From a virus, in IMG/VR virus record IMGVR_UViG_3300043410_000107, positions 1-24,440 of that record: a stretch of 24,440 nucleotides of DNA. The stretch is one strand, 5' to 3'. The notes beneath the pieces are model-generated. The model did no database searches and was not told where the DNA came from. It was given only the letters and a program-made list of their open reading frames with translations. This document shows positions 2,326 to 24,087 of the stretch, piece after piece (positions within the stretch are counted from its first letter, which is position 1; each line of letters opens with the position of its first letter). A program made the position numbers and the translations under genes.

Positions 2326-2979
2326 TTACCAGTCTGAATTACTGGATGTGATTGACGGAGTGTCGAATCCGAAGTAGAAGTTCTCCTGCTCTGCATAAGC
2401 AACTTCACGAACGACCTTTTCAAGATCGAATGCTTCGATTTCTCCCCAGGCGTAAGGCTCTGAGTCTGGCTTGGTAGGAAGCAAGGTGTAGCTGGTTTCA
2501 GTTCCCTGACCGTTACGCTTAATCTTCCACTCAAGGTTCGATACCGAACCAGTCTCAAGTGCGTACTCACGAATTGTGTTGAACGCTGACTGCTTGCTGA
2601 TACCCTGTGACCATACGGCTACGTAAGGGTCTTCAGTTCCGTCATCGATGATAACGTTGCAATAGAAGCGGAGACGTGAACGCCATCCAGACTTAGGCTC
2701 CTTGCGAGCCATCTCACAGCCGTAGCAACGACCCTCAGAATCAATTGTACAAGCAGCCTTACGCTTGTAATCCTTTGGATTGGTGTGCTCTGCGATTACT
2801 ACAGAAAGACCACGGTCTTCTGAGTAGTTAGCTGAATCCTGGTCCAGCTCTTCAATAAAACGGATCTTGGCAGACTGTCCATCTGCAAGCTTGACCCATC
2901 GGACCTTCTGTCCAGTTCCTTCATATTTTGGCTTGTCAACAATAGCGTTGATGTCTTTAAGCCCTCTGATGATACTCAT
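2326..2979 (-). CDS. Single-stranded DNA-binding protein, T4 gp32-like zinc motif
   Basis: This 217-aa protein probably coats single-stranded DNA at the phage replication fork. It contains a putative zinc site H65-x11-C77-x7-C85-x2-C88, close in spacing to the His-Cys-Cys-Cys site of T4 gp32 (H-x12-C-x9-C-x2-C). Around it are basic and aromatic stretches suited to an OB-fold (KVRWVKL near 25-31, WRSRLRFYCNV after the zinc site). The C-terminus is rich in aromatic, Ser and Asp residues and ends in SNSDW, which may be a partner-binding tail. ATG at 2979 is preceded by a strong AAGGAGA Shine-Dalgarno sequence. It sits between primase and polymerase genes, the usual place for an SSB in a replication module. 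There is no classical bacterial SSB signature. The functional call rests on the zinc motif and the neighbours. Confidence 0.78.
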   Translation of the reverse strand: MSIIRGLKDINAIVDKPKYEGTGQKVRWVKLADGQSAKIRFIEELDQDSANYSEDRGLSVVIAEHTNPKDYKRKAACTIDSEGRCYGCEMARKEPKSGWRSRLRFYCNVIIDDGTEDPYVAVWSQGISKQSAFNTIREYALETGSVSNLEWKIKRNGQGTETSYTLLPTKPDSEPYAWGEIEAFDLEKVVREVAYAEQENFYFGFDTPSITSSNSDW

Positions 2980-3007
2980 ATATATTTCTCCTTAATTGGT
3001 TGGATTA

Positions 3008-3952
3008 TTATTGTAGCATAGCCATAATGGTTTTGTCAAATGTTTCGTCCAAATTCTTGATATCTTCATCTAACATGTCGCCAATATCTTTATACTTTTT
3101 ATCTAATGTAATAACGCTAACACGATTGCCAAGCTTTTCAATTAGCTTTTCTTTCATGTTACCGCCAGCCTCATCGTTATCAGCAATAACAATAATGTTA
3201 TTGAAATACTTCTGAAGCAGGTCTGTTTGAATCTTGGACACGTTTGCACCCAATGTTGCTACAGCAGGAAAACCACACTGGTCAAGACGGATGGCATCGA
3301 ATGATGATTCAACGACATACACTTTCCCAGCAGTCTTTACCCTGTGTAGATTGAACAATACCTTTGACTTTGGTAGTCCAGGAGTGTTCTTGAACTCTTT
3401 ACCCTCAACGGATCGACCAACAAACCCAATGTCAACTCCGTCTGGTGAGGCTACAGGAATGGTGACCATGTCCTGCTTTTCAGAGTATCCAAGGCTAAAA
3501 CGCTTTACAGAGTCTTCTGTAATTAATCTGCCCTGGAAGTATCGCATAGCACGAGGAGACTCAAGTGCTTGGTTGTTGAGACGCTTAATCACAAGCTCGT
3601 CAAATGGAACGTAGTCTTGTTTAACTACAAGTGCCTTGTTGATTTGCTGCTCTAGATTAGACTCAGTCTCTTTAGACTTAATGAAACGTACCGCTTCGAA
3701 ATAGGTGCGACCAGAACTGTGCATCACAAGCTCTGTTAGGTCACATACATGCTGGCAGGAAAAGCAGTAGAAGAAACCAGAACGCTTGTCTACCTCACCT
3801 GCAGGTGTACGGTAGTTATTGTGGAAAGGACAAAAAATCAAGTAGTCTGAATCTACTTCTGATTCGACGTTGATTCCTGATCCTGCGATAACTCGTTTGA
3901 TTTGCTCTTCTGTGTAGGAACTAGTGCGGTTCCGTCTATTCCTTGTATCCAT
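3008..3952 (-). CDS. DnaG-like DNA primase (CHC2 zinc finger plus Toprim)
   Basis: This 314-aa protein should make RNA primers for the polymerase. It has a CHC2-type zinc finger, C41-x2-H44-x18-C63-x2-C66 (CPFH and CFSC), and a Toprim fold with VESSFDA (catalytic E215) and IADNDEAG (D258 and D260). Bacterial DnaG is about 600 aa; this one stops soon after the Toprim core and lacks the C-terminal helicase-binding domain, so contact with the helicase must be made differently. ATG at 3952 is the only start that keeps the zinc finger: no ATG or GTG lies between it and C41, and an AAGG stretch lies just upstream. It begins 100 nt inside the preceding 114-aa gene, in another frame. The helicase gene is one gene upstream and the ssDNA-binding protein gene directly downstream. 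Confidence 0.93.
   Translation of the reverse strand: MDTRNRRNRTSSYTEEQIKRVIAGSGINVESEVDSDYLIFCPFHNNYRTPAGEVDKRSGFFYCFSCQHVCDLTELVMHSSGRTYFEAVRFIKSKETESNLEQQINKALVVKQDYVPFDELVIKRLNNQALESPRAMRYFQGRLITEDSVKRFSLGYSEKQDMVTIPVASPDGVDIGFVGRSVEGKEFKNTPGLPKSKVLFNLHRVKTAGKVYVVESSFDAIRLDQCGFPAVATLGANVSKIQTDLLQKYFNNIIVIADNDEAGGNMKEKLIEKLGNRVSVITLDKKYKDIGDMLDEDIKNLDETFDKTIMAMLQ
3010..3018 (-). promoter_or_regulatory. Extended -10 promoter element TGCTACAAT before ssDNA-binding protein gene
   Basis: TGC followed by TACAAT on the minus strand overlaps the last codons and stop of the primase gene. Transcription would start near 3003 and give a leader of about 24 nt carrying the AAGGAGA Shine-Dalgarno sequence of the ssDNA-binding protein gene. 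No convincing -35 was sought beyond the coding sequence. It is one of a set of similar elements in gaps of this window. Confidence 0.4.
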
Positions 3953-4197
3953 TCTGCCTTTTTTCTTCCAATGTATGTTCCATATACTGATAATATAAAT
4001 TCAAAGTAATCTTTATCGTGGTTATAGTATATCGTAAAGTTTGGGTCTATGTCAAGTCTTGGTGCGTAACCATTGAGTCGCATCTCTGTATTGAGAAGCT
4101 TTGTGTACTCCTGGCGAAGTCTCCCAATGGAGATATCATCTTTGATGATACCGTCCAGAGAGAACCTCTTTATTGACTTGTGGTGACTGTGATCCAT
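3853..4197 (-). CDS. Conserved-looking small protein between helicase and primase, function unknown
   Basis: This 114-aa protein has no recognised domain. Residues 1-80 look folded, with alternating charged and hydrophobic stretches (RLDIDPNFTIYYN, YFEFILSVYG) and then GRKKAEW. The last 33 residues are polar and low in complexity (PTQKSKSNELSQDQ) and lie in the 100-nt overlap with the primase gene. That suggests the tail is shaped by the primase frame. ATG at 4197 has no good Shine-Dalgarno sequence (only AGG about 13 nt away), but a TATAAT ends 7 nt before it, so a leaderless message is possible. The gene starts 14 nt after the helicase stop. Position suggests a replication accessory role, for instance a helicase-primase adaptor, but the sequence does not show that. 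Confidence 0.75.
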   Translation of the reverse strand: MDHSHHKSIKRFSLDGIIKDDISIGRLRQEYTKLLNTEMRLNGYAPRLDIDPNFTIYYNHDKDYFEFILSVYGTYIGRKKAEWIQGIDGTALVPTQKSKSNELSQDQESTSNQK

Positions 4198-4204
4198 ACA
4201 TACT

Positions 4205-4210
4205 ATTATA
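4205..4210 (-). promoter_or_regulatory. TATAAT -10 element placed for a leaderless start of the 114-aa gene
   Basis: TATAAT fills half of the 14-base gap after the helicase gene and ends 7 nt before the ATG at 4197. The expected transcription start would fall on or next to the A of the start codon. The bases before it are AGG, so it lacks the TGn extension seen at other sites in this window. Confidence 0.4.
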
Positions 4211-4211
4211 C

Positions 4212-5432
4212 CTAATTTTCTTCAAAGTCCTTGTACTTATAGTATCCCTTGTCGAAGTCAGCCTGGACGATAAACTCACCCATAAATCCGTTACGGTTCT
4301 TACGGAACACGCACTCAATAATGTCAGAGTTAGTGGCACGACCTAGAGCAAGTACCCAGTCAGCATCGTAAGCAATCTGACGTGACCATGCAGTCTGACC
4401 AAGTGTAGGAACGGTGTCAAGCTTGTTAACGTCGTCTGGTGTTGCTGACGAGATAGCAATGATTGGCATTTCTTCACTAATAGCCATGAGCTTTAGTTCA
4501 CGAGAGAGGTTCTTCATACGAACAGTCTCGTTGTCTGACTTCTGGTTTGGAGACATAAGCTGCAAGTAGTCAACAATAATAAGGTCTGGCTTATACTGGT
4601 CAATCTTACCTCTAATAACGCTTGGCGTTACTTCTCCACCACCATCATTTGAGATAATGTGGAACTCTGGCTTACCAACAAGCTCCTTACCGTGCCAACG
4701 ACGAAGGTCGTCTGTCTCTACAAGACCAGCAGAAAGCTTACGATGTGACCAAAGACCCTCACCCATGATTGTAAATACACGGTTACGAACTTCTGTCTCA
4801 CTCATTTCAAGAGAGATGATTAGTGGTGACTTCCCTTGCTTCCAAGCCTGTACAGCGAAGTACAGAGCCATCCACGACTTACCGATACCTGGATATGCCA
4901 GGAACACGCCTAGCTGACCTGGAGTAATACCAGCAGGTAGGTAGTTGTCAAAGCCAGCAAGACCAGTCTTGATACCAACAGACCCAATCTCATTCTGTCG
5001 CTTTACATTCTCGTAGTATGCAACTGCATCCTCAATATCAATAACGTCAATGTCACGAATGACAGAGGTATTCTTCTTGAGTGCGGATGTCTGTGTAATT
5101 AGTTCCTCAAGAGCCTTTACACCCTGACCAGATTGAACCTCACTTGCTGTGTTGCGAAGAATGTCCTTGAGGCTGTCATTAAGGAACTCTGCCTGTAGCT
5201 CTTCAAGGTGATACTTGGTAGCACCAATTCCGTCAACAGGAGAGAAGTCACGGAACTTATCTACAACAAGTGATACAGGTGGCACTGTGCCATTCATCTC
5301 AGAATAGTTACGAATGAATTGCCAGATATCGTTATGTGTGCGTAGGATGTTATCTACGTTTGCCTGTAATAGTACGTGTACCTGCTTATCTTGCAGTACC
5401 GCAGAAATTAGCTTTGACTCTGTATTACTCAT
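4212..5432 (-). CDS. DnaB-like replicative DNA helicase
   Basis: This 406-aa protein is a RecA-fold replicative helicase of the DnaB/gp4 superfamily. The N-terminal ~150 residues are helical, as in the DnaB N-terminal domain. The ATPase core follows the linker around GIKTGLAGFDNYL: Walker A AYPGIGKS (K185, S186), the SLEMS segment with the catalytic Glu (E209), Walker B LIIVDYLQLMSP (D288), and near the C-terminus FRKNRNGFMGEF, equivalent to the KxRxG arginine-finger region of DnaB. The first Gly of Walker A is replaced by Ala, which is tolerated in some phage helicases. ATG at 5432 lies within the last codons of the upstream 102-aa gene (8-nt overlap), which implies translational coupling. 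It unwinds DNA ahead of the DnaE polymerase encoded downstream. Confidence 0.95.
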   Translation of the reverse strand: MSNTESKLISAVLQDKQVHVLLQANVDNILRTHNDIWQFIRNYSEMNGTVPPVSLVVDKFRDFSPVDGIGATKYHLEELQAEFLNDSLKDILRNTASEVQSGQGVKALEELITQTSALKKNTSVIRDIDVIDIEDAVAYYENVKRQNEIGSVGIKTGLAGFDNYLPAGITPGQLGVFLAYPGIGKSWMALYFAVQAWKQGKSPLIISLEMSETEVRNRVFTIMGEGLWSHRKLSAGLVETDDLRRWHGKELVGKPEFHIISNDGGGEVTPSVIRGKIDQYKPDLIIVDYLQLMSPNQKSDNETVRMKNLSRELKLMAISEEMPIIAISSATPDDVNKLDTVPTLGQTAWSRQIAYDADWVLALGRATNSDIIECVFRKNRNGFMGEFIVQADFDKGYYKYKDFEEN

Positions 5433-6944: not shown

Positions 6945-7094
6945 CTATGCCTGTTTTGGTATCAGGAATATTGGAGACCAGTCTGAGACCTCCGAAAGCG
7001 ATTCTGACACTATCCTAAACCTAACACAGTAATAGTTATTGCCATAGTCTTCTAGGTCAGCCAGGGTAAAACCTATCTTTTTGGTATCTGCCAT
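6945..7094 (-). CDS. 49-aa protein, probable small tail component
   Basis: A short frame of 49 codons begins ATG GCA GAT ACC at 7094 and ends with TAG at 6945-6947. Its start overlaps the stop of the upstream 463-aa gene as TAATG, with AGGTG upstream, so it is well placed for coupled translation. The peptide begins MADTKKIGFTLADLEDYG and then has a beta-rich stretch YYCVRFRIVSESLSEVSDW ending near SPIFLI. The pattern VRFRIVSE...SDWSP recalls a segment found at the start of longer virion proteins in related phages, so this may be a trimmed remnant or a genuine miniature protein. It fills what would otherwise be a 177-base gap. Confidence 0.7.
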   Translation of the reverse strand: MADTKKIGFTLADLEDYGNNYYCVRFRIVSESLSEVSDWSPIFLIPKQA

Positions 7095-8485
7095 TATGCC
7101 ACACCTACTGGAATTCTTATTTGAATATAACTGTTCTCGTTTTGATTCTTTGTAATCGCAATGTCTGTATAGGCAGTACCCTCCAGAATTGACACGTTTC
7201 TTGATACTGATGAATATGCGACTAGACCATATAATGGGTTTAGTCTTGCGTCAAAGATATTATCAAATCTCATTGCATCAAGCGATACATAGTAGTTTCC
7301 AGATGCCGAAACAACCGTACCATTGGTGTCTGTTCCACTTGTGTTGCTTGCAGTATACGCAAATGAGACTGTGTCTGCTGTAGTTGCAGTTATTGTATAT
7401 GTTCCGTCTGCTATGCTGGTTACTCCAGCAACTGTAACTGGGAACCCAACCTCAAATCCGTGATCATACTGTGTTGTTATAGTAGCGACATTGTCTACAA
7501 TTGAATAGCTTGCTGTTGTAAACTCTTCGAATACCGATGCAAAAATCTTGGCAATTTTTACCTGAGACCAGGAGAATAGTTCAGTCTTCTTAATTTCATC
7601 TAGCCTGTTCTGTGCAACAAAGTATGCGTTGGTTGACAGGTTTACATTTGTTTCTACAACCTGGAAGTTTGCATACTGACCGCCAGCAGCCTCTGTTTCG
7701 TCTGACGAAAACTGTACAAGAATTCGAACGTACTTTGGGGTGCTCTGTGTAGTCTGTGTTCTGTCTACCATATTTACCGAGTAAGCCAACTTGATGAGGT
7801 CTTCTGATGAGTTTGCACCAAGCTGCAATGCTGAGTCTACATAGTGAATATGTGTTGATCCAGATTCTGGTACTAGGAACCCACTTCCATCTACAGATAG
7901 ATATGATGTATTCCCACGCATCATGTATGTGTCAGTGAACATTCGTGGCTGCTCATTTGAAATTAATCTGTCATCCTCTAAGAACAAAGAGTCGTCAGCA
8001 GCGACTGAAAAAATTGGAATAGACTGGTCAATTGATCCGTCGTTCCCTCTGTCATTTATATTGATCACTCCTGGATTATTTTTTGAAAGAGGCAGGGTTG
8101 AGTAGTCTGGAATTGATAGGGTTCTTGTTGGCTCGTGAACTTCCCATCTTTCTGAATTTGTAAAGTCGAACATCTGTCTGCTTCCAGACTGGGCTACTGG
8201 ATTTGACGATGATGGATACAGTCCAGCCTCTGTGATTGAGTATCTGTTTTGTGTAGGTAGCTCCGATGCAAAGACAATGTACGGCTCGCCAGTCATTTCG
8301 TCTTGAACAATCGATACTGACGACACTGCAGTTCTTACTGTTTCAAAAATCATTGATTCCTGCGATGATGCTGGTAGGGTTGCTCCTGGAACATGCCCAC
8401 AACCAACAGCGATATAAGCACCATATGCTGGTGCTTGTCCAGCCATAAACTTGGTAATAATGTCTTTGCCTTTGTCTGTAATCAT
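7094..8485 (-). CDS. Tail-tip / baseplate structural protein with inserted Ig-like domain
   Basis: This 463-aa protein is probably a peripheral tail-tip or fibre-base component. The N-terminus MITDKGKDIITKFMAGQAP followed by IAVGCG is typical of tail-fibre-like proteins that begin with a short helix and a conserved Gly-Cys-Gly turn. The middle is beta-rich and ordinary. Residues about 322-397 form a separate cassette (HGFEVGFPVTVAGV, then GTYTITATTADTVSFAYT), which looks like a mobile beta-sandwich domain common in phage virion proteins. The C-terminus NENSYIQIRIPVGVA resumes the parent fold. There is no Shine-Dalgarno sequence; instead TATAAT ends 6 nt before ATG at 8485, so the message may be leaderless. 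Genes on both sides are tail genes. Confidence 0.82.
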   Translation of the reverse strand: MITDKGKDIITKFMAGQAPAYGAYIAVGCGHVPGATLPASSQESMIFETVRTAVSSVSIVQDEMTGEPYIVFASELPTQNRYSITEAGLYPSSSNPVAQSGSRQMFDFTNSERWEVHEPTRTLSIPDYSTLPLSKNNPGVININDRGNDGSIDQSIPIFSVAADDSLFLEDDRLISNEQPRMFTDTYMMRGNTSYLSVDGSGFLVPESGSTHIHYVDSALQLGANSSEDLIKLAYSVNMVDRTQTTQSTPKYVRILVQFSSDETEAAGGQYANFQVVETNVNLSTNAYFVAQNRLDEIKKTELFSWSQVKIAKIFASVFEEFTTASYSIVDNVATITTQYDHGFEVGFPVTVAGVTSIADGTYTITATTADTVSFAYTASNTSGTDTNGTVVSASGNYYVSLDAMRFDNIFDARLNPLYGLVAYSSVSRNVSILEGTAYTDIAITKNQNENSYIQIRIPVGVA

Positions 8486-8491
8486 AAATTA

Positions 8492-8500
8492 ATTATATCA
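8492..8500 (-). promoter_or_regulatory. Extended -10 promoter TGATATAAT, leaderless spacing
   Basis: TGA plus TATAAT lies in the 28-base gap before the 463-aa gene. The hexamer ends exactly 6 nt before ATG, which puts the expected +1 on the A of the start codon. No Shine-Dalgarno-like sequence is present. The hexamer at the -35 position with a 17-bp spacer is CCTATA, unlike TTGACA, so activity would rely on the extended -10. Confidence 0.5.
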
Positions 8501-14082: not shown

Positions 14083-14916
14083 TTAGACCTCTTCCAAAGA
14101 CAACTGGACATTCCAGTAGTCGTATGATCCGCCTCGTTTTTGTACTGTGTGAGCAAAGCTAGAGAAGAACATTTCGATTGGTTTATCATACCCTACCATT
14201 TTATCATAACTGTCTGCTCCGCCATCCACTTTATAATTGTCGTAGGAAAGATATACCCAGAAAGAGCCAATATTATTGTCATACCATTCCTTCATGTCAG
14301 CCCCTGCTGCACCACCATCTGATGTAATCTGAGTAAGACCATAATCGTTATTCAGAACAACTCCTGTAGAGGCGATATTGGGCATTTCTACAAATGCTTT
14401 TGACGGAACCATGTCCCAGTTGCTAGATATCTTTACCTTGTCAGCAATGTGGTATGAACGCATACGTCCATTAATCATACGCTCACGCTTTTCAATACGC
14501 TCTGGGGCTACGTCAATGTACTGCCTGTTGTCGTCTGTAAGAATAATAAAATTGTCAAACTCTGTGCCGTTTGGGGTATACACAACTGGTCCTGCATCGA
14601 ATGTTATTGTTCCATTTGAGGTTGGGGCAGCACTAAGTTTGACAGTAGTTGTTTCACCATTATACGCAACCTCAGATATCTCTACTCCAGAAACTCCCTC
14701 AACTAATCCAAGAGTAGATCCGTCTATTATAAGGTGGTATCCTGGCTTAAGGCTTGACTGACCGTTAAGAACAAATTCGTCTGATCCAGATGTCAGGTTT
14801 GCAGTAACGCCTTCAACTTTTACAAATATGTTTGCCGTTCCAGAATTATCAGCAAACAGAATAGCCTGTGGTCTAGTGTACTTCTGACGATTTTGCATGT
14901 ATGCCAATGTAGCCAT
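14083..14916 (-). CDS. Distal tail / minor tail protein
   Basis: This 277-aa protein is encoded between the tape measure and the tail-tip protein, the position of a distal tail (Dit-like) protein in siphoviruses. It is beta-rich throughout. Residues about 30-105 (FVKVEGVTANLTSGSDEFVL, then GYHLIIDGSTLGLVEG) look like an inserted beta domain, and the C-terminal half (DKVKISSNWDMVPSKAF, GSFWVYLSYDNY, YDYWNVQLSLEEV) looks like the core that binds the tail tube. Its ATG is joined to the tape measure stop as TAATG and has a strong GGAGGAAACAG ribosome site. The label distal tail protein follows from position; no Dit signature is certain. Confidence 0.78.
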   Translation of the reverse strand: MATLAYMQNRQKYTRPQAILFADNSGTANIFVKVEGVTANLTSGSDEFVLNGQSSLKPGYHLIIDGSTLGLVEGVSGVEISEVAYNGETTTVKLSAAPTSNGTITFDAGPVVYTPNGTEFDNFIILTDDNRQYIDVAPERIEKRERMINGRMRSYHIADKVKISSNWDMVPSKAFVEMPNIASTGVVLNNDYGLTQITSDGGAAGADMKEWYDNNIGSFWVYLSYDNYKVDGGADSYDKMVGYDKPIEMFFSSFAHTVQKRGGSYDYWNVQLSLEEV

Positions 14917-17900
14917 TATCTGTTTCCTCCAATTCTGCGTGATTCCATAGCTCGTAGTTTAGCAATTGCAACATTTGCAATGTCATCTGCGTTAGCACCT
15001 GTTGCTGCATTAACAACTACACTATAATTATACACTGAACCAGAGTCTGATGCTGAAGAACCAGAGTTAATCGATGCAAGGTTCTTAGCACCAAAGTCCT
15101 TAACAGATTCTTTATTGATTACAAACTCTCCTGGTGTAAGCATTGCTGGCACAGTGTCCGTATTACCAATGCCAGGAACCTGTCCACCCTCGTTAAGCTT
15201 GATGTGTGGAATGTCAAATGGATCCCATGTTTGTCCACCAACCTTTGTCCAAGCCTGTCCAGGAATAATTTCAAATGCTGGAATCTTGAACTTCCACTTG
15301 TTTAGTGCTTCAATAGCACCATTTACAGCAGTAACAAATGAGTCCTTGATTGTGGTTCCAATACTTCCAAACCACTTTCCGATCTTGTCTGGAAGTTCTT
15401 TCCACCAGGTTGATACGCTGTCAATGGTGTCTTTCCACCACTTCTTAACATCGTCAATCTTTTCTTTCATTGACTTGTCTTCGTTGAACCATGAGAAGAA
15501 CAGTCCAAACTTTTCCTGTACCCAGGCAATTGCACGATTGAATGGCTGAGTGATATGCTCGTCAATCCATAGGGATACCGATGTAAAGAAGTTGTTAATT
15601 GGTGTTGCAATGTTGTCGTTCCACCAAGTTGAAATAGCAGTAACCATGTTGTTCCAAGGAGTAGTGATGTGCTCATAAATCCAGTTTCCAACCATTGTAA
15701 AGAAGTCGTTAATTGGCTTAGAGATGTTTTCATCCCACCATGCCTTTATCTGTGCAACCATGTTATTCCAAGGCACTACAATGTTTTCATTAATCCAGTT
15801 GCCAACATCTGTAAAGAATTGCTGAATTGGTACGATAACAAACTCGTTAAAGATTTCTCCAGTTCCAATAAAGATTGCCTGGATGCTCTTAACCCATGGC
15901 TGGTTCATAAAGTCTGTTGCCCACTTCTCAACATTCTTCATGGAGTCGCTGAACCAGTCGCTCTTTGGTGCTGCTGCTGCAGTGTGTGATAGCCCATCTG
16001 CGGTAGCAGGAGCCACAGCCTTTGGTGATGGCTTCCAAATCCACTTACCAGATTTTTTGTCTTCAACCCATTCACCTTCGCCCTGCTTGTGCTGTGCATC
16101 ATATCCTGGCTTTGGTGTCTTTTCCTGAACCTGGTAGGTTCCGCCACCGCCACCAGAATTCTTCTTTGGAGATAGTTCGTATTCACGAATTGCAATAAGT
16201 TCTTTTAGTTTGTCAAGCTGTGGCTCAAGACCTCCTCTAGTCATGCCACGGAAAGACACATTGTCCAGCTCAGACTTTCTTGCATTCTCAAGTGACTTCT
16301 GTTGATTCGAAACTGCAGTCTCTGCATTCTTAGACTGAATTGCTTGGGCTGCTCTGGCTGCTGCAGCAACGTCACCCTTAGATAGTGCATCTGCAAGATC
16401 CATCTGGCTTTGCTGTTGTGCTGTGATTTCAGCCTGTGCGTCTGCGATGTCTTGTAGAGCCTTCTTACGCTCGTCATACTTCTTGTTAATTCTATCTTCA
16501 CGAATGGCGATTACGTCAAGGGCTTTCTGCTTCTTGTCTTGCTGGTCTTGGAGTCTCTTTAGTTCTGGGTCTTCTCCAGAGCCACCAGAGGATGTCTTTG
16601 TTACAGTCTTGTATAGGTCTCTAGTATCAGTAGCACCAGTCTCTCCATCCATTTCAAGTGATGCGATGTACTTGACACGGTATGTTGCAATTAGCTGTTC
16701 CTTGCTTGCACCAGACCCAAGACTGTCTTGTAGACCATTTGCATTAATCCACTTCCATACAGCATTGTTGTCTCCACCAGCCACCTGGTAGTTAACAAGA
16801 ACGTCCTTTGTGATTAGGTTATCTGTACCAGACAGCTCTTCCCAATTATCAAGAATGTATTGGAACTGTCCTCCAGTCTGCTCATTAATAGACATGAGAT
16901 CTTGTTTTCTAACGTTTGTATTAACTCTTTCAAGCTGATCAAATAATGACTGTGTCTTAATTAGGTTGCTTTCATTTACTAGTGTAATACCGTCGCTCTT
17001 GGCTGAAAGGTCTACTAGGCTTGCTAGTGACTGCACATCAAATCCGCTATTTGACATCATGTTTAGCATTACAGGAATATTCATGTCCTTGTTCATACCG
17101 CCCTGCATAGCTCTTCCTATGAGCTGCATAACGGTAGAGCTTTCTTCAAGACCCTTGGATGTTACCAACAGTTCAAATCCTGCACGAAGAGGTTCGCTGG
17201 CTTGTCCTGCAGATATAAGTGTTGCTGCTGTTGTTGGATCAATATTTCCATAAGCAACCTGAAGAGCAACTGTTACTCCGAATTTTGTATCTTTCAAGCC
17301 CATCTGGTCTACTTGGTTGATTGCTGCATTTGCTGCATCTTGTGCAATTGGATTATCTTTATATGTGATGGCTGACTGCTTTTGCAAAAGTCCATTCTCA
17401 CCAAAAGATCTTCCTGTATCCTGCATAAGGTATCCAAGAACATTGTCAGTTATTTTTGCAGAGTTTGCCTGTAATTCTGCCTGTGCGGTGTTTCTTTCTT
17501 CGATAAGCTTGTTAATATCTTCTTCAATTTTTTTGCGGTCCTTAGCATCCTTTGTTGTAATCAACTGTGCATCTAGCTCTGCAAGTTTTTGGTCATATTG
17601 TGTTGCCAACACATCTTTGAGCTGTTCGTTTTGCTGAAGAAGGTTCATTCCCATCTGTGCAGCATAAGCACCAATTTTGGCATTATTTTCAAGTGCTTTG
17701 TTATAGTCAGCTACTGCTGCCCCAATTTCCCAAACTCCAGTAGCGATATCTATAGCACCTGCAACTGCTACTGCAACACCAACTCCTGTTTCTGCGGCAA
17801 GTGCTCCTCCAGCAAGCTTTGCAGCACCAAGAGCCATCTTTCTAAATACAATTCCTGCAATCTTTTCACCAACTACTGGAAGAAGTCTTGCCCCAACCGA

Positions 17901-20900
17901 CGACATTGCTTTTCCAGCAAGGTTAATTTTTGTCATTTGCCCTGCTAGACTATTTAGTGCAAGTTGTGCAAATTTAGAGGTAGCCTCTTTGCCCAATGCC
18001 TTTTCGCCAACCTCGGACGCTACTGTAGACAGCCCCTTTCCAGTAATGGATAGACCTGTTGCTGTTTGTGCATAGCCAAGAGCACCAAGTGCAGCATTAC
18101 CAGGAGTTACTGGAGACTGGTATCCAGCTTGTGCCTGACCGATGGCTGCCTGGAATGCGTTAACATTCATAGCCTGGATCTCAAGAACAACCTTTAATGG
18201 TTCATTAGACAGCTTTTCACCATTTGGACCAATTAGCTCATTAACCTTCATGTTAACGTCTGCTGTAATTGTGGTATTTCCAACCTCTTGACCAATAGCA
18301 TATGCAAATGATTTTGCCTGTTCTGGTGTCATGATGCCCTGAGCAACATACATTCCCAACTGCGAAGCTAACGTTTGAACAGCTTGGTCTCTGCCCATTT
18401 GGGTCATTACATTTCTAAAGTCATCAAGAGTTTGCTTTCCAATGTCAGACTGCAGCAGCTTCTTTCCTTCTGCTAGAGCAACAGGGTCGCTAATGCCAGC
18501 AACCATCTCGTCATTCTTGTATCGCTGGATATCTGTTGCACCAACAGTTCCAAGCTGCTCGCCCATTGCTGTTAGCTTTTGGTTTGTTGTTCCAAATGAG
18601 TTAGCAAGATTTGCACCAGACTCAACTGCTTTACGCATTTTCTCATTAAATGCATCGATGACATCCTTAAGAGATAGAAGTGCAGTAACAAGAATTGCAG
18701 CCTTTCCAGCAATCTTTTGTGGAAGCATCATAGTAAGCATTGAGCCTGTCATTGCATTTTCAATAGTCTTGTCTAGTGGTGTTCCAGCAGCCATACCAAC
18801 ACCAGCAATAGCTGCACCTGCACCGATCGCACCCATTCCACCACGACGACCACGTCTTGAAGACTGGATAGCCTTCTTTTCTTCCATTTCCTTTATGGTT
18901 GTCTTCTTGCCCTCTTGGTCATAGTACTTACCATCTTTGTAAGTGTTTCCGTGCTCGTCAGCCCAAATGCCGTCCTGAACCTGTGAGAAGCCCTTTGCCT
19001 GTGGAGATCTTGGCTTCTTTGTAACCTTTGGAGCAGCAGCAGGTTTTGCTTTTTCAGAAGACATCTTCTTGACTTCGTCAAGTGCCTTTTTAATCTTTGC
19101 AGGATCTCCGCCAGAAGCACCAAGTCTGTCCGCAAGAATCTTTGCTCTTGGGTCTTTGTTTTTAGCCAACTCGTTAAGCATCTTTTGTGCATCTTGAGCA
19201 GCCTTCATAGCCTTTGGATCATTTGCGTTAACCTCAAAGTGACCCTTCTCAGAGAATGGTGACTTCTTTCCAAGTACCCTTTCAACAATGTTTAGACCTC
19301 TACCACCACTAGCAGAGAATCTGTTTGCATCAAAGCCCTTAATAGGTGAGTATGTGGTTCTTCCAGAGCTTCCACCACTGTTTCTTACAGCAACCTGTGT
19401 GCGTGACTCCATTAGTCTCATTGCACGATCTGCAAGTTGTCCAACAGACTTGTTTTTATTTGCAGCAATGGCTTCCTTGAAGGATTCACGGATAACCTTG
19501 TTCAATTCTTTTTCGTTTAGTGGAGTGTCCTTTAGAGCACCAAGCTTTGTGTCAAGTGTCTTTTCAATGTCTCCAAGAAGCTTCTTAATGTCTTTGTCTG
19601 CTGGCATACCGCCTTCAACGCCACGACCCTTTTGCTGTAGCCAGTCCATTGTTCCAACAAGGTTTGTACCAATAAATCCACCAGTTCGTTGCATGTGGCT
19701 TCTAGCGTCCTTTGCAGAAACCTTTTGCTGTACAGCACCCTTCTTTGAGTCATTCTTGAAAAGTTGATTAATGTCTGAACCAGCAAGACCAACAAGGCTT
19801 GACAGAAGTCTTCCGCTTCCAGCAGATTCAATTGCTTGTCTCTGAGATCTTCCAGTCTTGCTATTTACCTGGTCAAGAGTGATGTCTGATGCCTGTAGGA
19901 TTCCATCCTTGATTAACTTTTGAACTTCTTTGTCAAACTGTCCTAGCAACTCATCTGCTGGCATGTATGCTGTTGGCTCTGTCAAGTGCATTGCCTGACC
20001 AGTTACTGTCTCTGGGAATGGTACGTTCTTTCTCTTCTTTGCACCAGTTGTTCCATCTTCATACCCTGGAATGTTTCCAGCAACCATTCCATTAATTAGA
20101 CCGCTATACTTCTGTGCCATGTCTGCAGGAATGACCGCTTCGCCAGGTGCAAGCATTGCAGGAACAATGTCCCCAGCACCCTTTGGACCAGGAACCATGA
20201 CAACACCTTCTGCATATTTCTTTGGTGCTGCCTTTCCACGCTTTGTTAGTGCTCCGCCACCTGCTGCACCAAATCTTTCTTGTGCTGCTACAGCACGGTT
20301 TAGGGCTGCTGTTAGTGCAACAAGTGATTCTGTTTCAGATGTGTAAATCTGCTGAAGCTTGCTGTGTGTTTGACCTAGAGAGGTTGCTGCTGCTGCAGCG
20401 TTAAGCTGTGCCTCTGTCATGTATCGTGTTTCCATGCCAAGAGTTGCCGAATCCTTGGTTGCACCAGTAAACATTCTTGACAAGAATGCGAAGAACTTCA
20501 TTAGGTTGGCAATACCGTTGGCTACAAGACCGATAGCCATAAGAAGTGTAGGACCAACAACACCAAGTGCTGCTGTTAGACCCATTGCAAAGTTCTTGGA
20601 GCCATCACTCCAGCTATTAAACTGCTGTAAAAGTTTTGTTCCAAAGTCAAGAATGGGGGTTACTGCCTTTAGGAATTGCTCTCCTACAGGTGCTAGGGCT
20701 TGCTGGAACTTCTCCCAAGCAGCCTGGAACTTGAATGTTGTAGAACTCTGAACCTTGTCAAGCTCTCGCTTTGATAGAACTGCAAGCTCTGCTGCTGATG
20801 CATTTGCTAGACCAAGAACCTTCTGTGCCTGTGTTCCTTCTTTTGTAACGTTCTGGAGAAGTGTTGAGATACGTGAGAACTGGAACTTTCCAAACAACTG

Positions 20901-22217
20901 TTCGATTGCCTGAGCACGGTTTAGTGGATCAAGGTCATTCAGAGCATTTCCAAGGTCTATAATCATCTGCTTGACATCGCCAACGTTGCTGTCTACAATA
21001 TCTTTAAGGTTTACTCCCATGCCCTTGAGCATGTCGCTTGCTTTTTGTGTTGGGTTGATGATGGCTGCAAGACCTGACTTAAGTGCGTTAGCACCCTCAG
21101 ATGCGTTAATGCCGCCTTCCTTCATTGCTGTTAGGAAGAATGCTAGGTCTTCTACGTCTCCACCAAGTTGCTGGATGACAGGAGCAGCCTTTGGAATAGC
21201 TTCTGTAAGGTCGGAGATGGATGTAACTGTCTGGTTTTCAACTGCGTTAAGGAAGTCGATCTTTCCAGCCAAGTCTTCTGTTGCAATGCCGAATGCATTT
21301 GTGACTGAGATTGTTGTCTCGTATGCTTGCTGTTGATCGATCTGACCAAGAACTGCTAGGCGTGATGCGTTGGTGACCTGATCAATAAGTGCCTTGCCTT
21401 GGAAACCTGCTGCTGCTGCCTCTGCTGCAAGACTCATAGTGTCTTTAGCTGCTACACCGAATTTTGTAAACTCAGTAGCAAGCTCTTTGATGGACGCAAC
21501 CATCTTGTCAGTTTCTTGTACGCTTGTTGAGAAGTCTCCATATACACGCTGGAACTTGACAACTTCCTTTTCCATGTCCATAAATGTCTTAGCAGCAATA
21601 GTGCCAAGCATTGTTAGTGGAACAGTAAAACCAACCATGAGCTGACGACCAGCCCACTGTGTATTCTTACCGAAGTTAAGAAGTTGTGTTGAGCCAGTAT
21701 CAATAAGTTTGTTCATGACCTGAATGCGTTGTGCATTCATCATCATTTGGGTTTCAAGATTCTTGAGGTCAAGTACTAGGGGTCTAACCTTAATGGCTTG
21801 CATCGCACCATTGACATCTCTACCCATTTTAAGGTAGCTAGTTTGAATTGTCTTTGTACGTTCACGAGCAACCTTGTTAACCATCTCCATTTCGTTTCTA
21901 AAGAAACGACCAAAGAGTTTGGTTGATCCCATTGTATAGCGGAATGTCTCACCCATCGTGAGCTTATTCTTTTCAAGGGCTGTTGTGAATGCATCGGTTG
22001 CTGAAACAACCTCTGTCATGCTTGCTCTATAGCTGCCTGTGGCATTAATTGATGCGACTAGGTTTGTTCGCATCTTGGCAAGTTCGGCGTTAGCAAATCC
22101 ACCGCTTTTTGCCATTGAGGAATGAAAGGCTGAAATTCGTTCCTGCAAAACCTTGATAGCTGCAATTGCTTGCGTAGCATCAACATTTAAATTAATTTTG
22201 CTTTCGAAATCAGCCAT
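14916..22217 (-). CDS. Tail tape measure protein
   Basis: This 2433-aa protein sets tail length and probably enters the cell envelope during DNA injection. At about 0.15 nm per residue it predicts a tail near 365 nm. Residues about 190-320 match the TP901-type core (GRQLMVGFTVPLTMLG, then EAAAAGFQGKALIDQVTNAS). Hydrophobic segments occur near 560, 1140 and 1450-1500 (GVGVAVAVAGAIDIATGV). A Gly-rich VPAMLAPGEAVIP motif sits near 685 and a second VPAMLTPGEFVINKE near 2350, the usual C-terminal signature. Residues about 1880-2020 form a long charged coiled coil; 2122-2235 are six 19-aa Trp-rich repeats. ATG at 22217 has AGAGGT upstream; another ATG 4 nt earlier is out of frame. It follows the chaperones, as expected. 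No peptidase or lysozyme motif was recognised. Confidence 0.97.
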   Translation of the reverse strand: MADFESKINLNVDATQAIAAIKVLQERISAFHSSMAKSGGFANAELAKMRTNLVASINATGSYRASMTEVVSATDAFTTALEKNKLTMGETFRYTMGSTKLFGRFFRNEMEMVNKVARERTKTIQTSYLKMGRDVNGAMQAIKVRPLVLDLKNLETQMMMNAQRIQVMNKLIDTGSTQLLNFGKNTQWAGRQLMVGFTVPLTMLGTIAAKTFMDMEKEVVKFQRVYGDFSTSVQETDKMVASIKELATEFTKFGVAAKDTMSLAAEAAAAGFQGKALIDQVTNASRLAVLGQIDQQQAYETTISVTNAFGIATEDLAGKIDFLNAVENQTVTSISDLTEAIPKAAPVIQQLGGDVEDLAFFLTAMKEGGINASEGANALKSGLAAIINPTQKASDMLKGMGVNLKDIVDSNVGDVKQMIIDLGNALNDLDPLNRAQAIEQLFGKFQFSRISTLLQNVTKEGTQAQKVLGLANASAAELAVLSKRELDKVQSSTTFKFQAAWEKFQQALAPVGEQFLKAVTPILDFGTKLLQQFNSWSDGSKNFAMGLTAALGVVGPTLLMAIGLVANGIANLMKFFAFLSRMFTGATKDSATLGMETRYMTEAQLNAAAAATSLGQTHSKLQQIYTSETESLVALTAALNRAVAAQERFGAAGGGALTKRGKAAPKKYAEGVVMVPGPKGAGDIVPAMLAPGEAVIPADMAQKYSGLINGMVAGNIPGYEDGTTGAKKRKNVPFPETVTGQAMHLTEPTAYMPADELLGQFDKEVQKLIKDGILQASDITLDQVNSKTGRSQRQAIESAGSGRLLSSLVGLAGSDINQLFKNDSKKGAVQQKVSAKDARSHMQRTGGFIGTNLVGTMDWLQQKGRGVEGGMPADKDIKKLLGDIEKTLDTKLGALKDTPLNEKELNKVIRESFKEAIAANKNKSVGQLADRAMRLMESRTQVAVRNSGGSSGRTTYSPIKGFDANRFSASGGRGLNIVERVLGKKSPFSEKGHFEVNANDPKAMKAAQDAQKMLNELAKNKDPRAKILADRLGASGGDPAKIKKALDEVKKMSSEKAKPAAAPKVTKKPRSPQAKGFSQVQDGIWADEHGNTYKDGKYYDQEGKKTTIKEMEEKKAIQSSRRGRRGGMGAIGAGAAIAGVGMAAGTPLDKTIENAMTGSMLTMMLPQKIAGKAAILVTALLSLKDVIDAFNEKMRKAVESGANLANSFGTTNQKLTAMGEQLGTVGATDIQRYKNDEMVAGISDPVALAEGKKLLQSDIGKQTLDDFRNVMTQMGRDQAVQTLASQLGMYVAQGIMTPEQAKSFAYAIGQEVGNTTITADVNMKVNELIGPNGEKLSNEPLKVVLEIQAMNVNAFQAAIGQAQAGYQSPVTPGNAALGALGYAQTATGLSITGKGLSTVASEVGEKALGKEATSKFAQLALNSLAGQMTKINLAGKAMSSVGARLLPVVGEKIAGIVFRKMALGAAKLAGGALAAETGVGVAVAVAGAIDIATGVWEIGAAVADYNKALENNAKIGAYAAQMGMNLLQQNEQLKDVLATQYDQKLAELDAQLITTKDAKDRKKIEEDINKLIEERNTAQAELQANSAKITDNVLGYLMQDTGRSFGENGLLQKQSAITYKDNPIAQDAANAAINQVDQMGLKDTKFGVTVALQVAYGNIDPTTAATLISAGQASEPLRAGFELLVTSKGLEESSTVMQLIGRAMQGGMNKDMNIPVMLNMMSNSGFDVQSLASLVDLSAKSDGITLVNESNLIKTQSLFDQLERVNTNVRKQDLMSINEQTGGQFQYILDNWEELSGTDNLITKDVLVNYQVAGGDNNAVWKWINANGLQDSLGSGASKEQLIATYRVKYIASLEMDGETGATDTRDLYKTVTKTSSGGSGEDPELKRLQDQQDKKQKALDVIAIREDRINKKYDERKKALQDIADAQAEITAQQQSQMDLADALSKGDVAAAARAAQAIQSKNAETAVSNQQKSLENARKSELDNVSFRGMTRGGLEPQLDKLKELIAIREYELSPKKNSGGGGGTYQVQEKTPKPGYDAQHKQGEGEWVEDKKSGKWIWKPSPKAVAPATADGLSHTAAAAPKSDWFSDSMKNVEKWATDFMNQPWVKSIQAIFIGTGEIFNEFVIVPIQQFFTDVGNWINENIVVPWNNMVAQIKAWWDENISKPINDFFTMVGNWIYEHITTPWNNMVTAISTWWNDNIATPINNFFTSVSLWIDEHITQPFNRAIAWVQEKFGLFFSWFNEDKSMKEKIDDVKKWWKDTIDSVSTWWKELPDKIGKWFGSIGTTIKDSFVTAVNGAIEALNKWKFKIPAFEIIPGQAWTKVGGQTWDPFDIPHIKLNEGGQVPGIGNTDTVPAMLTPGEFVINKESVKDFGAKNLASINSGSSASDSGSVYNYSVVVNAATGANADDIANVAIAKLRAMESRRIGGNR
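15513..15854 (-). repeat. Six tandem 57-bp (19-aa) Trp-rich repeats in the tape measure gene
   Basis: Residues 2122-2235 split into six 19-aa units with no gaps, starting at 15854, 15797, 15740, 15683, 15626 and 15569. The consensus is W-x-(N/D)-(E/D)-(N/H)-I-x-x-P-(W/I)-N-(N/D)-(M/F)-(V/F). Odd units and even units are more alike (PINDFFT versus PWNNMVT), so the duplicating unit was probably 38 aa (114 bp). The first unit is the most diverged. DNA identity between copies is partial, so the repeats are old or under selection. Confidence 0.85.
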
Positions 22218-22240: not shown

Positions 22241-22549
22241 TTAGGAAATGAATCCCTCACCAAGCTTTACGCCTGATGCTCCTTCTACAATCTTGTAAAC
22301 TGATGGAAGGTCTAGTTTGTCTTCAAGAGTTGCAAGGTCATCTGCAATCTCTGGCTTGTACTGACGCATTGCGATCTGTACACACTCCATTAGAAGTGTC
22401 ATTGACTTGTTGTTGTCTTCTGCCACTGTTGCAATTCCCTCAAACTTCTTCATGAAGTCACGGAGAAGAGAAATCTTTAGTGGTCTTACTTCAATCACTG
22501 TACCGTCGATTAGCTGTACGCTGATTGTTTCATTTGTTTCGGTTGCCAT
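22241..22549 (-). CDS. Short tail assembly chaperone (gpG-like paralog)
   Basis: This 102-aa protein is a tail assembly chaperone that would coat the tape measure before tube polymerisation. It is a clear paralog of the N-terminal half of the gene just upstream: MATxxx...IDGxVxxxxPLK, LLMECVQIAMRQYKPEI against LLECGTIAMMQYRPEI. It ends at GVKLGEGFIS with a stop, and only 23 bases separate it from the tape measure gene, so there is no room for a frameshifted extension. ATG at 22549 has the strongest ribosome site in the window (AAGGAGG) and its own extended -10 element, suggesting high expression of the short form. The chaperone identity follows from the paralogy and from its place directly before the tape measure. 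Confidence 0.86.
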   Translation of the reverse strand: MATETNETISVQLIDGTVIEVRPLKISLLRDFMKKFEGIATVAEDNNKSMTLLMECVQIAMRQYKPEIADDLATLEDKLDLPSVYKIVEGASGVKLGEGFIS

Positions 22550-22575
22550 TTGTCCTCCTTGTTAGGCGTAATTAA

Positions 22576-22584
22576 ATTATAGCA
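22576..22584 (-). promoter_or_regulatory. Extended -10 promoter TGCTATAAT before the short chaperone gene
   Basis: TGC plus TATAAT sits in the 46-base gap between the two chaperone genes. The predicted start near 22569 gives a 20-nt leader containing AAGGAGG. The same nine bases occur in the two preceding gaps. It would let the short chaperone be made at a different level from the long one. Confidence 0.5.
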
Positions 22585-22595
22585 TAAAACATTTT

Positions 22596-23291
22596 CTATG
22601 ATTGGCGTAAATCTGTATACCCAATGCCCATACCAATTCCAAATCCAGCATCTGCTGCCTTACGTCCCTTAAAGCTTGTAATATCGTTTTCGTCTACTGA
22701 ACTAGCACCAAAAACTCTATCCTTCATTGCTTGCCATGGGTCTTTTTCTTTTTGGGAATTGCCACTCTTTTCGTCTAGGTCAATGCCCTGGATTGCAGCC
22801 ATGAACTTCTTATCCTCATAGTCTGACTCTCTTTTTGCATTAAGTATTTCTGTTAGTTCTGGCAATGACAAAGATGACTCAAGATCCTCATAGTCTTTCC
22901 ATATACCCAGCAAAAATACCTCAGACTCAAGTTTTGCCAAATCAAGTGTGTCCCAGAAATTATCTGGTGAGTCTACTTCATCATTCTTTTTTTCTTTTTC
23001 TGCATCTTCTCCAGACTTGTACGAAATTCCTGCTGCAATATTTACTATATCCTGCAATGTTTTTATATCCACAAGATCTTCTAGTTTTTCTTTTGAGTTG
23101 ATCTCTGGTCTATATTGCATCATAGCGATAGTTCCACACTCAAGAAGCATCTCTATCTTATCTAGCTCCTCGTCTGTTTTCGTGAATATTTCCATAAATG
23201 GTCTTAAGTACTTTAGTTTTAATGGAGTTATGTACTGAACATCTCCATCTATGAAATGGATAATCTTTGAGTCGTATATTTTAGTTGCCAT
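22596..23291 (-). CDS. Long tail assembly chaperone (gpGT-like, fused in frame)
   Basis: This 231-aa protein has two parts. Residues 1-102 are paralogous to the short chaperone encoded next. Residues about 108-231 are a T-type extension (FWDTLDLAKLESEVFLLGIW, SLPELTEILNAKRESDYEDKKF, ending AGFGIGMGIGYTD) that recruits the major tail protein. In classical phages this fusion needs a programmed frameshift; here it is continuous. At the junction (residues 100-102) lies an A AAA AAG heptamer whose -1 product would end after one extra codon. The start at 23291 is fixed by alignment with the paralog: both have 16 residues up to IDG. It has no Shine-Dalgarno sequence, and TATAAT ends 6 nt upstream, so the message may be leaderless. 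The linker is very Lys/Glu-rich. Confidence 0.88.
   Translation of the reverse strand: MATKIYDSKIIHFIDGDVQYITPLKLKYLRPFMEIFTKTDEELDKIEMLLECGTIAMMQYRPEINSKEKLEDLVDIKTLQDIVNIAAGISYKSGEDAEKEKKNDEVDSPDNFWDTLDLAKLESEVFLLGIWKDYEDLESSLSLPELTEILNAKRESDYEDKKFMAAIQGIDLDEKSGNSQKEKDPWQAMKDRVFGASSVDENDITSFKGRKAADAGFGIGMGIGYTDLRQS
22981..22992 (-). promoter_or_regulatory. Candidate -1 frameshift site, dnaX-like, in the long chaperone gene
   Basis: The minus strand reads GAA AAA AAG AAT GAT in the zero frame, so the heptamer A AAA AAG (22992-22986) has the X XXY YYZ phase needed for a tandem -1 slip. After the slip the next codons are GAA (22986-22984) and TGA (22983-22981), giving a 103-aa product. A GGAG that could act as a stimulating Shine-Dalgarno sequence lies 16 nt upstream (23012-23009). 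A small hairpin, CCAGA/TCTGG with a 5-nt loop, starts 18 nt downstream. Both spacings are longer than usual, so the stimulators are doubtful while the heptamer and stop are certain. Confidence 0.5.
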
Positions 23292-23297
23292 ATATCT

Positions 23298-23306
23298 ATT
23301 ATAGCA
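23298..23306 (-). promoter_or_regulatory. Extended -10 promoter TGCTATAAT, leaderless spacing, before the long chaperone gene
   Basis: TGC plus TATAAT starts inside the end of the terminator T-tract. The hexamer ends exactly 6 nt before ATG at 23291, so the predicted +1 is the A of the start codon. The gene has no Shine-Dalgarno sequence. The element restarts transcription right after termination. Confidence 0.55.
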
Positions 23307-23339
23307 AAAACGAAACTGCCCCAGCGTTAGCCAGGGCAG
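23306..23339 (-). terminator. Intrinsic terminator after the major tail protein gene
   Basis: The minus strand has a 10-bp stem (CTGCCCTGGC paired with GCTGGGGCAG, two G-T wobbles in the middle) with a TAAC tetraloop, followed by TTTCGTTTTT. It starts 26 bases after the major tail protein stop. The plus strand has no T-tract on its side, so the signal acts on the minus strand only. It would raise the ratio of major tail protein message to chaperone and tape measure message. Confidence 0.88.
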
Positions 23340-23365
23340 CTCCTATTAAATTATTGATTCTGCTA

Positions 23366-24016
23366 TTAAGCAGGAACCCATGTACGGTCTGTGATAGTTC
23401 CGTATGATGCGTTGTCGTTTGGAAGCAGACGGAATGAAACGTCAAACATTGTTGCTTCGTCACGCTTCGCTGATACTGATACGTTCTCAATTGAGAGAGC
23501 ACGGTATGCAACGTAGACACGCTCAGTTGTTGATGAGTCTGCACAATCGCCAGTTCCTGGACCAATTGCAACTAGACCACGCTCAACAGGACACTCACCA
23601 ATGTCACCTGCAGATAGACGAAGTTCTCCGCCTACCAAGTCAGTTGACTGACCAGCGATAGCAAACAGAAGGTTCTCAAGTGTTGCCTCAGCAAACGATG
23701 TGTTGAGGTTCACCTGCATTCCCTGCTTGTAAAGCTTGGCTACGTCAAGAACCTGGTCAACTCTAACCTCACCGAAGTCAGGTTGGAATTGAAGTTCAAG
23801 ACCGTTGCTGGTGTAACCGACGTTGCTGAAACCGCTTCCAGATGTGTCAGTTAGTGTGTCCTTGTAGGATGCTGTAGTATCGAAATCGATAAGGTCTGTC
23901 GCAGCACCTGCGTCAGTGATCTTACCATCGACACCGAGACCGATAGGACCGTCATATGTAAAGAGTGCTGCAGCACCAACGATGATGTTTGCACTCGTAC
24001 CACGTGAATATGCCAT
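23366..24016 (-). CDS. Major tail protein (tail tube)
   Basis: This 216-aa protein forms the tail tube. It is beta-rich with alternating short strands (GLELQFQPDFGEVRVDQVLD, MQVNLNTSFAEATLENLLFA, VYVAYRALSIENVSVSAKRD) and ends in FDVSFRLLPNDNASYG, a pattern typical of tube proteins: a strand-rich core, one helix around LENLLFAIAG, and a final hairpin. Size and position (just before the chaperones and tape measure) agree. ATG at 24016 has GAGGTGA about 10 nt upstream. Its message is bracketed by promoter-like elements upstream and a strong terminator downstream, as suits the most abundant tail protein. Three cysteines are present, but no membrane or signal segment. The identification depends on position and fold pattern. 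Confidence 0.88.
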   Translation of the reverse strand: MAYSRGTSANIIVGAAALFTYDGPIGLGVDGKITDAGAATDLIDFDTTASYKDTLTDTSGSGFSNVGYTSNGLELQFQPDFGEVRVDQVLDVAKLYKQGMQVNLNTSFAEATLENLLFAIAGQSTDLVGGELRLSAGDIGECPVERGLVAIGPGTGDCADSSTTERVYVAYRALSIENVSVSAKRDEATMFDVSFRLLPNDNASYGTITDRTWVPA

Positions 24017-24046: not shown

Positions 24047-24087
24047 AAAGGGGCGTTTCCTCAATACTTATTATAGCACCCTTTTAT
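24044..24087 (-). repeat. 9-bp inverted repeat enclosing a -10 element
   Basis: ATAAAAGGG and CCCTTTTAT (24079-24087 and 24044-24052) are perfectly complementary and separated by 26 bases that contain TGCTATAAT. In the minus-strand RNA it could form an A-tract/U-tract hairpin and end transcription of the upstream gene; as DNA it could be an operator around the promoter. The loop is long for an efficient terminator. Confidence 0.4.
24070..24078 (-). promoter_or_regulatory. Extended -10 promoter TGCTATAAT before the major tail protein gene
   Basis: TGC plus TATAAT lies in the 67-base gap upstream of the major tail protein gene. A start near 24063 would give a leader of about 46 nt ending in a strong ribosome site. 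It is the first of three identical nonamers in three gaps of this window. Confidence 0.5.

Follow-up and report, generated by a model that had tools for sequence, protein, structure and literature searches.

The window analysed here is the whole 24,440-nucleotide stretch corresponding to positions 1 to 24,440 of IMG/VR record IMGVR_UViG_3300043410_000107. On its minus strand, on which all features given below lie, a major tail protein gene (216 aa; 23366-24016) is followed by a 231-aa gene (22596-23291), a 102-aa gene (22241-22549) and a 2,433-aa tape measure gene (14916-22217). The two smaller genes thus sit between the major tail protein and tape measure genes, as do chaperone genes of the lambda G/GT type. 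An earlier note on this DNA had described the 231-aa gene as carrying both chaperone parts in one frame, with a short paralogue next door. Profile matches bear this description out: both products match phrog_10504 (G-type; E = 1.4e-13 and 8.2e-17), and only the long one has, in its C-terminal part, a further match to phrog_10474 (T-type; E = 3.1e-14). We refer to the long gene, which lacks a Shine-Dalgarno (SD) sequence, as G-T and to the 102-aa gene as free G. Within G-T, the G-type domain comprises residues 1-90 (23022-23291; phrog_10504, residues 1-95) and the T-type domain residues 112-225 (22617-22958; phrog_10474, residues 130-184). The T-type domain is homologous to an ORF that canonical relatives encode in the -1 frame.

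The major tail protein matches phrog_2175 ('protein with Ig domain', E = 5.9e-31), and its gene occupies the syntenic position of major tail protein genes annotated in Streptomyces phages; the tape measure gene is likewise placed as annotated tape measure genes are. It starts 23 nt after free G, with which it is probably co-transcribed, and -10 elements were found in only 3 of 150 upstream regions of tape measure genes at loci with the fused architecture. tblastn searches with the chaperones matched Streptomyces phages only, in 127 records, many of them annotated as tail assembly chaperone. The two phrog families themselves carry no function annotation; from synteny, the annotated Streptomyces relatives and the frameshift of the relatives, we assign both genes as tail-assembly chaperones of the lambda G/GT type, in a siphovirus-like lineage related to Stanwilliamsviridae. 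Pfam contained no family above the cut-off and Rfam searches found nothing, and there was no meaningful match in the PDB either by sequence or in fold searches with AlphaFold2 models of both proteins. These models have mean pLDDT values of 72 and 75, with most of the fusion's G-type domain at 80-93, and are compatible with a fusion that has two ordered domains and, across the junction, a linker of low confidence (residues 92-110). No relatives of G or of the major tail protein, in hosts or prophages, were found among 84,980 species genomes. Downstream of the tail genes and in the same orientation lie replication-type genes (2326-5432), judged by eye to include a DnaG-like primase (3008-3952), a DnaB-like helicase (4212-5432) and possibly a single-strand binding protein (2326-2979).

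To place this gene pair among its relatives, we collected about 400 loci from six viral-contig scans and two protein searches of isolate phages, and applied G and T profiles to them. The loci retrieved showed a strict dichotomy. An in-frame G-T fusion together with a free G was present at 269 loci (192 distinct, here meaning distinct DNA; many loci are close kin, and thinning at about 74-82% identity leaves 38-48 fused loci), and a single G with T in the -1 frame, which we call canonical, at 128 loci (58 distinct). The remaining 11 loci are cut by contig ends, except one. Conservation in 192 distinct loci places the fusion and its paralogue beyond chance. The earlier note had raised the question of whether relatives without the duplicate keep a slippery site, and every metagenomic single-copy relative does: the canonical G/T overlap holds a heptamer in 54 of 54 distinct metagenomic loci, which is G GGA AAN or C CCA AAN in 53 of them. 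Among isolates, Wakanda has C CCA AAT in this overlap, and in StarPlatinum, JimJam and Bmoc the -1 overlap is open and contains no perfect X XXY YYZ heptamer. What comes closest in these three phages is C CCG GAA, located where Wakanda has C CCA AAT.

Two candidate traces of a transition between the architectures were considered and rejected. The end of free G in the window reads GAG GGA TTC, which resembles GAG GGA AAC and could be taken for a remnant slippery site. This idea was dropped because 127 of 130 free-G 3' ends contain no heptamer and the sole GGGAAAC among them is isolated. The only candidate for an intermediate with both a frameshift and a second G is the locus not cut by a contig end (L206, positions 1-1032), an apparent arrangement of G, T in another frame, and G. 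Its frame break falls inside the G domain, so it is probably an assembly indel.

An intrinsic terminator (23306-23343; 14-bp stem, 4-nt loop and T tract; hairpin of -24.6 kcal/mol, z = -5.4) follows the major tail protein gene, and its T tract runs into the extended -10 element of G-T, TGCTATAAT (23298-23306), whose hexamer ends 6 nt before the ATG. By the consensus-based calls used here for promoters and terminators, the terminator is in the same position in 104 of 104 fused loci, and in 146 of 151 distinct fused loci the end of a -10 element lies 4-10 nt ahead of the G-T start. Such placement is rare elsewhere, being found at 2 of 170 free G genes, 1 of 48 canonical G genes and none of 150 tape measure genes in fused loci. 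SD matches of 5 or more bases were present at none of 151 G-T genes, at 150 of 170 free G genes and at 35 of 48 canonical G genes. These signals predict that the G-T mRNA is leaderless; that leaderless translation is normal in the host is inferred from the kinship with Streptomyces phages. An exact TATAAT lies upstream of 21 of 134 G-T genes versus 125 of 134 free G genes. In the window itself the G-T element contains a perfect TATAAT, which means that this promoter is not necessarily weak.

Free G in the window has an extended -10 element, TGCTATAAT (22576-22584), with the hexamer 26 nt before the ATG, followed by the SD sequence AAGGAGG (22554-22560). Across distinct loci, the -10 element of free G was in a leadered position, 18-45 nt upstream, in 167 of 170. 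In 187 of 188 pairs the stronger SD was that of free G, and codon adaptation, scored against the major tail protein, was higher for free G in 127 of 127 (0.63 versus 0.48). In Mycobacterium smegmatis, reporters with a leader and a good SD yielded more protein than leaderless ones (PMC7148126). Together with these reporters, the promoter, SD and codon signals make it likely that G-T is scarce and free G abundant. The G:GT ratio of lambda, given in PMC5009743 as about 30:1, is described there as critical for tail assembly; in the window's clade the ratio is most likely set by initiation.

We also weighed whether free G has taken a different job, for example at another part of the tape measure, in which case the two genes would not reproduce a G:GT ratio at all. 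The two G domains do differ consistently, with N-terminal motifs (VRPLKISLLR in free G and ITPLKIKYLR in the fusion) that are each conserved, and the fusion copy evolves faster. However, in the G-domain tree free G clusters with the G of the frameshifting relatives, which have only one (98/92), and it keeps the leader and SD layout and adjoins the tape measure gene, as expected of the ancestral G role. Divergence could also reflect specialised partners within one complex, and the differing motifs suggest such specialisation after the duplication. On balance, we regard a different job for free G as unlikely.

For G-T, the prediction of a leaderless mRNA has to be set against the possibility that the -10-like element is a by-product of the terminator's T tract, in which case G-T would depend on transcription reading through from the major tail protein gene and on initiation without an SD. 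The T tract does provide part of the -10-like sequence. When the same 26 nt were shuffled (200 draws), however, the element appeared in the required position in a mean of 9.3 and a maximum of 19 loci, compared with the observed 146 of 151, and the observed spacing peaks sharply at 6 nt. Canonical relatives share the terminator, which lies between the same two genes in 29 of 31 canonical loci, yet their -10 element is about 30 nt upstream and their G is leadered with an SD, which indicates that the leaderless layout arrived with the fusion. A further gene in the window, encoding 463 aa (7094-8485), has TGATATAAT at 8492-8500, likewise ending 6 nt before the ATG, and is predicted to be a second leaderless gene. 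Considering these observations, we find read-through decidedly unlikely and retain the leaderless reading of G-T. There are four copies of TGNTATAAT in the window (1.0 expected; none of 100 shuffles had as many), one in front of each of the genes for the major tail protein, G-T, free G and the 463-aa protein. At the major tail protein gene, TGCTATAAT lies at 24070-24078, with a longer leader. The presence of TGCTATAAT at the major tail protein gene, G-T and free G suggests that there are several separate promoters inside the tail module.

To reconstruct the order of events, we built a tree from the major tail protein and the N-terminus of the tape measure protein, rooted on the Streptomyces phages, and repeated it with more loci. 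The fused loci formed one clade (100/100), with the canonical loci as a grade around it. This nesting of the fused clade among frameshifters indicates that one duplication with in-frame fusion replaced the frameshift. In a G-domain tree, built on few columns, the fusion G domains formed one clade (97/84) with one partial free-G row among them, and free G and canonical G came together in the second clade noted above; this split points to one ancient duplication. The simplest reading of the two trees is a single duplication with in-frame fusion, after which the slippery site was lost from both copies. The grouping of free G with canonical G is as expected if the fusion copy evolves fast, and it also fits a duplication older than the canonical split. 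In that case, the canonical frameshifters would be secondary reversions that had lost the fusion copy. The G-domain tree is the evidence in favour of this history, and rate acceleration of the fusion G explains that tree as well. The tail-protein tree, with its grade of frameshifters around a single fused clade and the Streptomyces phages (T in the -1 frame) outside, argues against reversion, which would have to occur several times and rebuild the same heptamers on each occasion. We therefore consider reversion very unlikely, and favour a single duplication within the ancestry of the fused clade.

The G/T junction of the window's long gene contains A AAA AAG in zero-frame phase (22986-22992; codons 101-102, in the context GA[A AAA AAG] AAT GAT), the sole X XXY YYZ heptamer of the gene. 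As the earlier note had correctly read, a -1 slip here would decode GAA (22986-22984) and then TGA (22983-22981), giving a 103-aa product ending in KKE. In Escherichia coli dnaX, A AAA AAG followed by a Glu codon and a stop yields a truncated product. By analogy, the note had proposed that the phage moved G-T into the zero frame and makes the short form by a slip, by gene duplication or by both. The zero-frame fusion and the duplicate gene as a source of the short form stand; the slip does not.

Several lines of evidence bear on the slip. We found A AAA AAG at 4 of 176 distinct fused junctions, the window counted, in unrelated places and with 1 (window), 13, 3 and 29 codons to the -1 stop; the window is alone among the 176 in having an immediate -1 stop after the heptamer. 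No X XXY YYZ heptamer of any kind was present at 151 of the 176 junctions, and no conserved alternative slippery site was found among them. The linker between the two conserved domains is hypervariable in sequence and length among relatives; the window's long protein has its closest relatives at about 56% identity, and conservation of the heptamer was assessed beyond that distance. The note had asked whether the heptamer, its stop and the duplicate are conserved together. The fusion and the duplicate are kept throughout the distinct fused loci; the heptamer and the immediate stop are not, and the A-tract, whose lack of conservation the note had named beforehand as a refutation of its reading, is not conserved among relatives. 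When the 35-codon lysine-rich junction was recoded with synonymous codons, A AAA AAG arose in 11.5-13.4% of recodings, and the combination of A AAA AAG and a -1 stop no more than four codons away in 7.7-11.7%. The RNA downstream folds into a weak hairpin (-14.6 kcal/mol, z = -1.7), and 10 of 200 shuffles fold as well. A dnaX-like -1 slip at the heptamer, yielding a 103-aa G form that would be redundant with free G or balance it, has in its favour the correct phase, the position exactly at the domain junction, the stop one codon later and this hairpin. But it is highly improbable given that no relative conserves the heptamer, that the linker is hypervariable, that chance alone gives 8-12% and that in each of the 192 distinct loci a short form is already available from free G. 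The window's A AAA AAG is probably a chance A-run in a lysine-rich linker, and a low basal slip may occur at this single site.

Together, these data lead us to propose the following model. The ancestor would have had one gene that made much G and little G-T, through -1 frameshifting at G GGA AAC or C CCA AAY. A single duplication of the region in the ancestor of the window's clade, as the architecture and the trees suggest, would have allowed the upstream copy to become the in-frame G-T fusion and the downstream copy to keep G alone; the exact path is inferred, and may, for instance, have been a tandem duplication of G-T followed by loss of the second T. Both copies would then have lost their slippery sites, a loss that is evident in the present-day genes. 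G-T would be expressed from its own, usually weaker promoter just behind the major tail protein terminator, as a leaderless mRNA with no SD. Free G, with its strong extended -10 element, leader, strong SD and better-adapted codons, would be transcribed together with the tape measure gene. The initiation signals are evident from sequence conservation, and the model extends them to protein levels. We assign a probability of roughly 0.8 to the explanation as a whole, in which duplication and fusion replaced the frameshift, initiation sets the ratio and A AAA AAG is due to chance. We lean, with less assurance, towards the specific statement that a two-gene system replaced the frameshift once and that the type of initiation, leaderless for G-T and SD-led for G, sets the stoichiometry.

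Tail chaperone frameshifting is among the most conserved recoding events known. A two-gene lineage with frameshifting sisters provides a natural experiment on whether the slip itself or only the G:GT ratio is under selection. Should an entirely different mechanism maintain the ratio, then it is the ratio that selection sees, and if our model is true, leaderless initiation gains a concrete role as a ratio-setting device. There is also a practical consequence, as gene pairs of this sort would be overlooked or misinterpreted by annotators and gene finders that look for a slippery site. We found no description of this lineage, of the mapped switch or of the initiation asymmetry in the open-licence literature.

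The known systems resemble the window in different respects. The heptamer of dnaX is identical and in the same phase, followed by a Glu codon and a stop; in the window, however, the heptamer is unconserved, the hairpin downstream is weak and the short form comes from another gene. Lambda makes gpG and gpGT by a programmed -1 frameshift (Levin 1993; Xu 2004, 2013, as cited in PMC5009743). The window shares with lambda the site between the major tail protein and tape measure genes and the same two forms, G and G-T, and its direct relatives use the classic -1 frameshift, whereas its own clade needs none, with G-T in frame and G made from a separate gene. The closest annotated isolates, the Stanwilliamsviridae phages StarPlatinum, JimJam, Bmoc and Wakanda, have homologous G and T in the same gene order, and their G is 33-36% identical to free G. 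What sets these phages apart is a lone G gene whose T lies in the -1 frame, with neither a fusion nor a second G. In mycobacterial leaderless mRNAs, the -10 element is close enough for transcription to start at the start codon, and there is no SD (PMC4633059, PMC7148126). The -10 element of G-T is equally close to its start codon and is likewise accompanied by no SD; the difference is that leaderless initiation is predicted here, and goes with the minor member of a stoichiometric pair. Finally, the two-gene arrangement is already of a known kind. T4-like phages have a short gene and a separate long fusion gene and use no frameshifting (Vladimirov, Gautam and Davidson 2022, Virology 566:9, as described in PMC10885494 and PMC12846349). 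According to this published description, which is the basis for our comparison, they too have a short copy beside a short/long fusion copy and obtain both forms without a frameshift. As T4-like phages belong to another phage lineage, their arrangement presumably arose independently. In the window's lineage, by contrast, frameshifting sisters persist, the switch maps to one branch, and the clade that made it shows the asymmetry between leaderless and SD-led initiation.
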